From contig JAKYXN010000012.1 of assembly GCA_022538095.1 (NCBI GenBank), positions 1-64,000 of the forward strand: a DNA stretch of 64,000 bases, in the 5' to 3' direction. Below, in pieces: positions 9,011-20,594 of this stretch (positions are counted from its first letter, which is position 1; every line of letters begins with the position of its first letter). Source of the DNA: Puniceicoccaceae bacterium K14 (GTDB taxonomy: Bacteria > Verrucomicrobiota > Verrucomicrobiia > Opitutales > Opitutaceae). The position numbers were made by a program, and so were the translations under genes. The notes under the pieces were generated by a model that saw only the letters and a program-made list of their open reading frames with translations, was not told the origin of the DNA and made no database searches.

Positions 9011-9355
9011 ATGACAAAAACAATAATATCACTTCTTGCCGTTTTCGCAATGGCTACCGTTTCATTCGCTCACTGTGGTTCCTGCGGAACTGGCGATGCT
9101 GAGCATTCTCACGACGAATCCAGCGAGTGCTGTGGCAAAAAGAAAGAATGCTGCGGAGAGAAAAAAGAGTGTTCTGATGAAAAGAAAGAATGCTCTGGTG
9201 AGAAGAAGGAGTGCTCTGGCGAAAAGAAAGAGTGCAGTGGAGAGAAGAAAGAATGCTCCAAGGACAAGTCTGATTGTTCAGAAAAATCTGAGTGCAGTTC
9301 GGGCGAAAAGACTGCCTGTAAAGAAGAATGCTCAAAAGAGTGCTGCGCAGCATAA
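9011..9355 (+). CDS. Secreted cysteine heptad-repeat protein, likely metal-binding
   Basis: A 114-residue protein with a Sec signal peptide (residues 1-20, cleavage expected after SFA) and a mature chain of ~94 residues holding 17 cysteines. Residues 39-82 are seven-residue repeats of the pattern E-C-(C/S)-(G/D)-E-K-K, so one cysteine recurs every seven residues. The mature N-terminus would be HCGSCG, followed by a His-rich EHSHDE. The composition suggests extracytoplasmic metal or thiol chemistry, like a periplasmic metallothionein; this is inference. The coding DNA has 21-bp tandem repeats that could expand or contract. A terminator follows. Confidence 0.75.
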   Translation: MTKTIISLLAVFAMATVSFAHCGSCGTGDAEHSHDESSECCGKKKECCGEKKECSDEKKECSGEKKECSGEKKECSGEKKECSKDKSDCSEKSECSSGEKTACKEECSKECCAA

Positions 9356-9490: not shown

Positions 9491-9541
9491 TAGGCTAACA
9501 GCCGAAGCTACTAAAGCTGTAGGTCCTGCTGACAGCAGGAC
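9491..9541. repeat. Structured intergenic element (CTGTAGG hairpin)
   Basis: A perfect 8-bp hairpin GTCCTGCT-GAC-AGCAGGAC (9523-9541) is preceded by GCTGTAG and further partial dyads of the ACAGC/GCTGT type from about 9497. It lies in the 400-bp gap between the cysteine-rich gene and the MuiA-like gene. No reading frame is convincing in this gap. Confidence 0.5.
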
Positions 9542-9562
9542 GTTCAACCTCGCTCTCATTGT

Positions 9563-18243: not shown

Positions 18244-19185
18244 CTAAGCTCTGGGATGAGCTTGATCGTACACCGACTTGAGACGAGCCAAATTCACATG
18301 CGTGTAAATCTGCGTCGTAGAAAGGGATGAATGTCCTAATAGTTCCTGCACCAACCTTAAATCGGCGCCATTATCCAAAAGATGAGTCGCGTAGGAGTGA
18401 CGAATCTTGTGCGGAGTCAGGTCCATGGGTAATTCCGCCAAAGCCAAGTATTTTTTCAACATAAGCTGCACCTGGCGCACTCCCCAAACCGTACCCTTAT
18501 TCGAAACAATCACCGGATCCTCGTAACTCGTCTTTGGGGCAAATTCATCTCTCCACTTGCCCAAAACCGCCATTGCCACCTTGCCCAAAGGGCAAACCCG
18601 AGACTTACCTCCTTTACCCACAATTCGGGCCACACCTTCCTCAAAACTAACTTTTCCGTAGGTCAAGCCAATCAACTCGCTTACTCGAAAACCAGCACCA
18701 TAGAGAAGTTCCATCGCAAGGCGATCTCGCCAGGCCTCAAAGGGTTCAATCTCCCTTCTTTCCATCCGCTTCTTCGGGCCTTCCAGCAAAAGCGTAACCT
18801 GCTTCTCCGTCATAAAAGCCGGCAAGGTCTTCATCAATTTCGGCAAAGACAGTCCGGTAAGCGGGTTGGTATCGATCTCTTTTCGCTGCAACCAAAACTT
18901 AAAAAACGTTCGCAAGCCCGACACATAGTTATGTACCGTACGACGCGATACCCGACGCTGCTGATCGATGACAAAATCTCGAGCAATCTTCAAATTTACG
19001 GACTGGAGTCGCCGATCCCATTGTTGCTGCTTGTCCAAATAGTCGAAAAAGACCACCAATCCACGCGTGTAGTTGCGCAACGTATACTCGGACACTCGCC
19101 GCTCGTGTTGCAGGAACAACTGGAACGGATGCAGCCACTTGCTAAACCAAATGGGATATTCACGTTCCTCGACAACCTCAGACAT
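18244..19185 (-). CDS. XerC/XerD-type tyrosine recombinase
   Basis: A 313-residue site-specific recombinase. The N-terminal SAM-like DNA-binding domain (about 15-100, [18 protein letters not shown]) and catalytic domain are both present. The active-site set is visible: Arg in GAGFRVSEL, Lys in [13 protein letters not shown]-x-x-R in [11 protein letters not shown], His in [10 protein letters not shown] and the nucleophilic Tyr in IYTHV. The length is typical of XerC/XerD, which resolve chromosome dimers at dif. I cannot say which of the two it is. The promoter side abuts the tandem structured repeats at 19290-19738. Confidence 0.88.
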
Positions 19186-19289
19186 AAATTGAGAACCTAG
19201 GCATCAAGGTAAAAACCACAAGCCACAAAACGTAGACCCAGTTGCCGACTGAGCATTTTCATAAACCAAAGGCTTAGCCCTACATTTTG

Positions 19290-19405
19290 TCAGGGTCCCT
19301 TCGGGACACAGGTGTCGCTATGCGACAGCAGGTTTCAATAGTAGGCTCCACAAAAAAACCTGTCATTGCCTAGCAATACCTGTGGCTCGTGAAACGAGAC
19401 CCTGA
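19290..19405. repeat. Ladder-fold structured repeat, copy 1
   Basis: A 116-bp unit bounded by the perfect 8-bp inverted repeat TCAGGGTC / GACCCTGA. Inside, ACAGGT pairs with ACCTGT and CAGGTTT pairs with AAACCTG, giving three coaxial stems. Between successive stems each strand carries a hairpin: CCC-GGG (cccttcggg) opposite CTCG-CGAG, and GTCGC-GCGAC opposite ATTGC-GCAAT. The fold is thus two stacked four-way junctions capped by a loop. Confidence 0.8.
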
Positions 19406-19481
19406 TAATTTCTAAAATGTAGGCCTCATTAAAGGTCCGGTACTTCAAGCAAACAATTTAAAGCGAAAAAATACGCTTTTG

Positions 19482-19598
19482 TCAGGGTCACTGCGGGACG
19501 CAGGTGTCGCTTTGCGGCAGCAGATTTCAATAATAGGCTCCACAAAAAAACCTGTCATTGCCTAGCAATACCTGTGGCTCGTAAAACGAGACCCTGAT
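19482..19598. repeat. Ladder-fold structured repeat, copy 2
   Basis: A second full unit of 117 bp starting 192 bp after the first. The terminal inverted repeat and the middle stem are kept, except that the left middle strand reads GCAGGT. Loop bases vary (TAT to TTT, TGAAA to TAAAA). The hairpin GTCGC/GCGAC becomes GTCGC/GCGGC, still pairable through a wobble, whereas the first hairpin and the inner stem each lose one pair. The 76-80 bp spacers between copies are also partly similar (gtacttca, gcttttgtca). Confidence 0.8.
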
Positions 19599-19677
19599 AA
19601 TTTCTAAAGTACTAGAATCGATCATTCATCGGGTACTTCAGGCAGAAAATTTCAAACGAAAAGGATATGCTTTTTTG

Positions 19678-19738
19678 TCAGGGTCCCTGCGGGACACAGG
19701 TGTCGCTTTGCGACAGCAGGTTTTAATAAGAAGCTCCA
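19678..19738. repeat. Ladder-fold structured repeat, truncated copy 3
   Basis: Only the left half of the unit is present (TCAGGGTC through the inner strand CAGGTTTT and the start of the loop), 196 bp after copy 2. A short sequence with CAGGT...ACCTG dyad at 19878-19897 may be a further eroded remnant. The rest of 19739-19931 holds no gene. Confidence 0.7.
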
Positions 19739-19931
19739 TCACCCAATATTGTACGCTCGATCACTTATCATGTGCGTCAGCCTAAGCATTCGATGAAAGA
19801 GAAATAGGTAATTTGGACATCGCTTACGCTAGATCCTCGCGAACGCTCGGGCAGGATCACTTCGCTATGCTTCGTGGCAGGTTTTTGAAAATACCTGATG
19901 TCTTAAATTTATAACCTGATTGCCCCCTAAC

Positions 19932-20594
19932 CTACTTCAGCTCTGTCAAACTCTCGACTTCCGCTTTCACCTTCGACGCATAACGGCGCAAAGCAGATTC
20001 CGGGTCTATACCGCTCTTTCGACAAGCCGAAACAATTTCAAACATGATTTGGCCAGCTGACTCTTCATCTAACTCTGTTGAAATTTCTTCAATCGCCTTT
20101 TCATCGACAAGCTCTCCCGAAGTCAGCTCACGCTTATGGATTTGCTTGTATATTTCATACGAATACAAAGTAGAAGGCAACGGCGGTGGAATATCCTTAA
20201 AAACGGATTTCGGTTTGTCCGCGTTACGCTTTTCTGTGGCCTTAATTTCTTCCCATTTCTTCAAAACCGCTTCGGAAGACTCAAGGTTCTCCTCCCCAAA
20301 AACATGCGGGTGGCGGCGGATTAGCTTATCGTTAATCTCTCGAGCCACTTCTTCAAAATCGAAATGCCCCGCTTCCTTAGCCATTTGAGCATGGAAAACG
20401 ACTTGCAACAACACATCGCCGAGCTCCTCACGCATATGATCCATATCGCCGTTATCGATCGTCTCCAAAAGCTCGCAGCACTCATCAACCAAGCACTGAG
20501 CAATCGACTGATGCGTTTGTTCAATGTCCCAAGGACACCCATCCGGAGCTCGCAAACGAGCCATAGTCTCTAATAAATCCTGAATAGCGCTCAC
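19932..20594 (-). CDS. mazG: MazG nucleoside triphosphate pyrophosphohydrolase
   Basis: A 220-residue all-alpha NTP pyrophosphohydrolase that hydrolyses (d)NTPs, including aberrant ones, to NMP and PPi in the cytoplasm. The MazG core is clear: RLRAPDGCPWDIEQTHQSI, the acidic metal-binding helices DECCELLETID and REELGDVLLQVVFHAQ, and RRHPHVFG. It is a short one-plus-partial-domain form compared with 263 residues in E. coli. It lies 54 bp downstream of the oleB-like gene on the same strand and may be read from the same transcript, though its role is unrelated. Confidence 0.92.
   Translation of the reverse strand: MSAIQDLLETMARLRAPDGCPWDIEQTHQSIAQCLVDECCELLETIDNGDMDHMREELGDVLLQVVFHAQMAKEAGHFDFEEVAREINDKLIRRHPHVFGEENLESSEAVLKKWEEIKATEKRNADKPKSVFKDIPPPLPSTLYSYEIYKQIHKRELTSGELVDEKAIEEISTELDEESAGQIMFEIVSACRKSGIDPESALRRYASKVKAEVESLTELK

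Follow-up and report, generated by a model that had tools for sequence, protein, structure and literature searches.

Dispersed, possibly REPIN-like double-hairpin elements with CAGG tags in Puniceicoccaceae bacterium K14, including a tandem array upstream of xerC

Introduction

REP-type elements have been described mostly in Proteobacteria, with the tags GTAG or CGTC. REPINs are inverted REP doublets with compensatory changes, which are mobilised with RAYTs and which also occur as tandem clusters together with flanking DNA (PMC3116915). REPs are located between codirectional or convergent genes (PMC3733652), as are 15 of the 16 scorable element places reported here. TnpA_REP and the IS200/IS605 enzymes use as a guide a tetranucleotide that lies 5' to the hairpin foot (PMC6006769). 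Concerning such repeats in the bacterial group studied here, a literature search found nothing.

We analysed a window of 64,000 nt from Puniceicoccaceae bacterium K14 (GCA_022538095.1, contig JAKYXN010000012.1, positions 1-64,000, forward strand). It contains a tandem array of an element that is dispersed and intergenic, occurs in pairs and as single units, has covarying hairpins and conserved tags, and is absent from the sampled relatives.

Results

The array upstream of xerC

The tandem array (19287-19738, period 192-196) consists of inverted-repeat copies, two full and one half. The genes on either side of it, mazG and one of XerC/D type, run on the minus strand and are not counted as part of the element. 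The former (19932-20594, minus strand) encodes a MazG-family nucleotide pyrophosphohydrolase (PF03819, 1.3e-31; TIGR00444 over cut-off). The latter (18244-19185, minus strand) encodes a tyrosine recombinase of 313 aa (PF00589, 8.8e-41), which matches TIGR02224 with 3e-87, yet under the curated cut-off. The distance from the upstream array to the xerC start codon is 102 bp. The preliminary description had placed it beside the promoter of a tyrosine recombinase gene, which holds for the gene, while the promoter is putative. In the central spacer of the full copies (19338-19366 and 19530-19558, minus strand), a putative sigma-70-like hexamer pair faces xerC (ATGACA-17-TACTAT / TATTAT, a consensus match only). 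Elsewhere in the window, positions 9125-9258 hold a tandem repeat of 21/42 bp, in phase.

The repeat unit is about 50 nt long and has the layout TTGTCAGG-(hairpin 1)-ACAGG-(hairpin 2)-RCAGGTTT. It thus comprises two short hairpins with an unpaired CAGG just 5' of each foot, followed by a third CAGG with a T-run. In copy 1, unit L (19287-19336, plus strand; R1 74.3 bits, R2 73.4 bits) reads TTGTCAGG, hairpin 1 GTCCC-TTC-GGGAC, ACAGG, hairpin 2 TGTCGC-TAT-GCGACA and GCAGGTTT. Unit R of this copy is inverted (19355-19408, minus strand; R1 66.8 bits), and in the alignment its hairpin 2, ATTGC/GCAAT, is a compensated form of GTCGC/GCGAC. In copy 2, unit L (19479-19528, plus strand; R1 64.0 bits) has one broken hairpin-1 pair and CAGA as its third tag, and unit R is again inverted (19547-19600, minus strand; R1 65.2 bits). 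The truncated third copy retains unit L (19675-19724, plus strand; R1 74.0 bits) without an inverted partner. Copies 1 and 2 are separated by a spacer (19409-19478, no strand), part of which (19436-19469) recurs with 82% identity at 19629-19662. Hence, the tandem duplication took in flanking DNA. Just past the half copy, an imperfect palindromic stretch (19813-19890; GGCAGGATCACTTCGCTATGCTTCGTGGCAGGTTTTT, 8.8 bits) is perhaps a decayed related unit.

Of 122 positions, 8 distinguish copy 1 from copy 2. The changes at positions 12 and 46 abolish a hairpin-1 pair and an inner-stem pair, respectively, those at positions 22 and 39 lead to wobbles, and the remaining four lie in loops or the spacer, as the preliminary description had stated. 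Folded as ssDNA, copy 1 reaches an MFE of -25.5 kcal/mol whereas its shuffles average -12.8 (z -4.9, 0/200). As RNA, its z is -6.7, and both of its strands fold well beyond the shuffles with DNA or RNA parameters. The ladder of stems and hairpins drawn previously is the ssDNA MFE fold of copy 1. Copy 2 retains the parts, but its folding is weaker (DNA z -2.8) and its best DNA fold is another one (ladder -14.1 vs MFE -20.6).

Dispersal and genomic context

The own genome (5.7 Mb, 358 contigs) was searched with sequences and models, from which all genome-wide counts derive. With copy 1 as the query, its left and right halves were matched separately elsewhere. At E<=1, 28 matches were obtained with a covariance model built from 14 units. 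The model of 34 units gave 34 matches at E<=1 and 29 at E<=0.01, the latter in 19 places. Copies outside the array, on which the earlier proposal depended, do exist in these places of the own genome. The copy number is low, as 29 units at E<=0.01 in 5.7 Mb are not the many tens to hundreds of REPs.

Outside the array, the units are single or form inverted pairs. Inverted doublets are present at about 11 places, several with a decayed partner, and three single units score equal to paired ones. The two units of a pair mostly differ in their hairpins (L and R ends), and together they make up an element of about 105-200 bp. In most pairs, hairpin 2 of the R unit is TTGGC/GCCAA or ATTGC/GCAAT, and that of the L unit is GTCGC/GCGAC. 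One subfamily, on contigs C25, C353, C332 (twice) and C305 (twice), has an enlarged R hairpin 1 (GTTCC..GTCACGCC..GGCGGAC..GGAAC); in some of its L units, hairpins 1 and 2 are separated by an additional hairpin, and across copies there is good alignment of its R end and spacer. The insert hairpin H3 was considered as an independent repeat and rejected, with pattern matches outside the element near the control level. In a third subfamily (start of C292, C330, C254), another palindrome extends outward.

By a longest-ORF criterion, in which overlapping short ORFs of 61-166 aa were counted as spurious, all 19 places were classed as intergenic. Gene orientation could be scored for 16 places, with 10 codirectional, 5 convergent and 1 divergent. 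The flanks are mostly unrelated between places and homology generally ends at the element borders; a short extension beyond them is shared within C25/C353/C332.

Insertion sequences adjoin some copies. On C25, an IS110-family transposase gene (L062:718-1989) lies directly next to a unit pair, which is uninterrupted; REPs are known targets of IS110 elements. An IS3-family element begins beside the outer end of the C254 unit (L066:1982-2072), and contig C292 starts at the point equivalent to this border (L064:1-79), where an IS may adjoin the same unit end too.

Conservation of hairpins and tags

In the hairpin stems, 86.5% of the cells are paired and 11 of 12 pairs show double-sided changes. 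Altogether, 55 cells are altered on both sides, compared to 17.6 in shuffles. The covariation score is 0.386 vs 0.170 for shuffled alignments (0/500) and 0.04-0.11 for slid partners; these values come from an alignment fitted to the structure, which biases them in favour of pairing, and related rows are counted separately. The first 14 units alone show a like trend. The tags are conserved to 92-96% per letter (TCAGG/ACAGG, 96%), against 72-74% for the stems, although they were included in the search model and their apparent conservation is partly ascertainment.

The long-range stems of the ladder behave differently. At no position have both halves changed to a common letter. Within elements, the ladder boxes have 30 mismatches in 158, which 42% of the shuffles equal or improve upon, in a test of limited power because the tags are near-invariant. 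The ladder was rejected as a selected structure, since it shows no double-sided change and an element's own halves match no better than random pairings. In the covariation test suggested in the preliminary description, compensation is thus found for the local hairpins and not for the long-range stems. Our conclusion is that the tag and the local hairpin are the targets of selection or of the copying process, and that the ladder is a consequence of two tag-bearing units being inversely placed.

Distribution outside the genome

Outside the own genome, no units were matched at E<=0.001 in 57 relatives, 384 genomes of the class and 388 of the phylum; these sets overlap, include the own genome but no other of its genus, and were searched with stricter filters, which lose weak matches. 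The expected copies were thus found in the own genome (29 units at E<=0.01) and not in the sampled relatives. A degenerate pattern searched in 84,980 GTDB species gave 32 matches, none with a convincing CM score (best 25 bits), where by our own estimate about 32 are expected by chance (2 x 257e9 x 273 gap choices / 4^21). No Rfam family was matched at the gathering score, and the window gave a tRNA only.

Candidate enzymes

Three loci for Y1 transposases are present in the genome (C349, C36 and C314). Those on C349 and C36 adjoin GTAG-tagged hairpins (TGTAGG...), and the C349-type hairpins constitute a REP family of their own, for which 15 close matches were obtained. The C314 gene (328 aa) partially matches the NCBI model for REP-associated tyrosine transposases, under cut-off. 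Beside the three loci, no CAGG unit was detected above background (best R2 8.6 bits, E 0.9). The candidates for a cognate RAYT were hence rejected, 0 of 3 being flanked by units. As the assembly consists of 358 contigs, an unassembled Y1 gene is possible.

The window contains a GTAG REP at 9518-9542 (TGTAGGTCCTGCTGACAGCAGGACG), of the same family as the REP beside the C349 gene. At L026:1483-1908, several GTAG REPs, paired in inverted orientation, surround a Y1 transposase reading frame that contains a TGA in frame.

Discussion

In our view, the array is probably a small cluster belonging to a palindromic element that is non-autonomous, dispersed and REPIN-like and that was copied by a Y1/HUH-type enzyme. 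Its mobility is inferred from the dispersal. A TnpA_REP/RAYT-like transposase would have read the tag and hairpin on ssDNA, as for REPINs, and this cognate enzyme may since have been lost, or be unassembled or unrecognised. Unequal exchange or replication slippage, acting on a single insertion together with its flank, would later have produced the tandem copies at xerC. Any present role is probably limited to intergenic hairpins near gene ends. The proposal of an undescribed REP/MITE-type element in the preliminary description agrees with the dispersed, intergenic position, the inverted pairs and singles, the covarying hairpins and the restriction to this genome. The element works like a REPIN, but we do not call it a REP member because it is without the GTRG tag (GTAG/GTGG at the 5' hairpin foot), a linked Y1 gene and a high copy number.

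A bolder reading, to which we give a limited chance, is a distinct class of single-strand mobile elements with a double-hairpin unit and three CAGG guides. Here, a Y1-type or other nuclease outside the known TnpA_REP subclasses would read two hairpins per end.

The element could instead be a MITE of a DDE (double-strand) transposon, in which two TIRs of about 50 bp, cut from a larger transposon, carry CAGG boxes about 20 bp apart as several transposase-binding sites. Inverted ends and L/R asymmetry fit this, as does the C25/C353/C332/C305 subfamily, in which full elements of about 175-200 bp were copied as a unit. However, the units occur singly too, and visual inspection of the flanks of 11 copies, with borders placed to within a few bases, showed no evident target-site duplication. 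Stems that covary rather than conserve their sequence are unexpected for dsDNA binding sites. Among the loci read, no transposon had such ends; the IS3 beside the C254 unit was rejected as a carrier, as it begins outside the unit and its other copies are without units. We regard a DDE origin as unlikely.

A structured RNA or cis-regulatory element (terminator, attenuator or mRNA 3' stabiliser) would be selected for its RNA fold. RNA folding is indeed strong, and the places are mostly downstream of genes. But at codirectional places the element has either orientation (by our count, 6 the same as the genes and 4 opposite), and both strands fold. Among the inner-pair cells that are not Watson-Crick, 8 of 34 are wobbles and 26 are mismatches, which is about the random expectation, so that there is no sign of an RNA-specific G-U tolerance. 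In addition, Rfam gave no match and we noticed no shared gene class. The structured RNA named in the preliminary description is weakly supported at best, and we hold it to be distinctly unlikely as the explanation; a secondary effect on the host is possible.

An immobile chromosomal site that binds a protein of the nucleoid or gyrase type and is maintained for the benefit of the host is quite improbable. In PMC6006769, REPs elsewhere are cited as binding IHF, gyrase and DNA polymerase I, which would suit such a site, whereas the missing matches in the sampled relatives, the variable architecture and the low copy number would not. Finally, the earlier suggestion of a folded single-strand recombination site for the adjacent XerC-type recombinase is hardly tenable, despite the distance of 102 bp, because a tyrosine recombinase gene adjoins 1 of 19 places only (none was noticed beside the others, whose neighbours were scanned in part against the family library), no cassette-like organisation was seen, and the neighbour resembles a housekeeping Xer-type protein next to mazG.

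GTAG REPs and a double-hairpin CAGG family in one genome would point to wider tag and hairpin grammars in the reading by single-strand transposases. With its strong hairpin covariation, the CAGG family lends itself readily to testing which enzyme mobilises it.

Comparison with known systems

Like REPINs, the element forms intergenic inverted doublets around a short spacer and tandem clusters that take in flanking DNA, is predicted to fold into ssDNA hairpins with compensatory changes, and is genome-specific (PMC3116915). In REPINs, each half has one hairpin and one GTAG-type tag, whereas here it has two hairpins and three CAGG tags. REPINs reach hundreds of copies, have decayed singlets and are RAYT-associated; here, there are about 19 places, several singles are well preserved and no associated RAYT was found.

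GTAG/CGTC REPs likewise have a short unpaired tag 5' of a hairpin, form dimers and occur in a codirectional or convergent gene context, but they are 20-40 bp long and tagged GTAG or CGTC, and the present units have about 50 nt and the tag CAGG (TGTCAGG) (PMC3733652). In this genome, GTAG REPs coexist as a separate family beside Y1 genes.

The terminal repeats of TIRtrons/TIRYT, among them self-complementary ("double palindromic") TIRs, resemble the element in their long inverted repeats, internal palindromes and dispersed dimers; they flank a tyrosine transposase gene, whereas no such gene is flanked by units here (PMC3733652). TnpA_REP class 3 (foot CnGA) and subclass 2.6 are similar in having a non-GTRG tag or atypical structures and in being dispersed, but their foot is not CAGG and they adjoin their own transposase gene (PMC6006769). 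These two groups, the self-complementary TIRs of TIRtrons and TnpA_REP class 3/subclass 2.6, are the nearest non-canonical precedents for the element.
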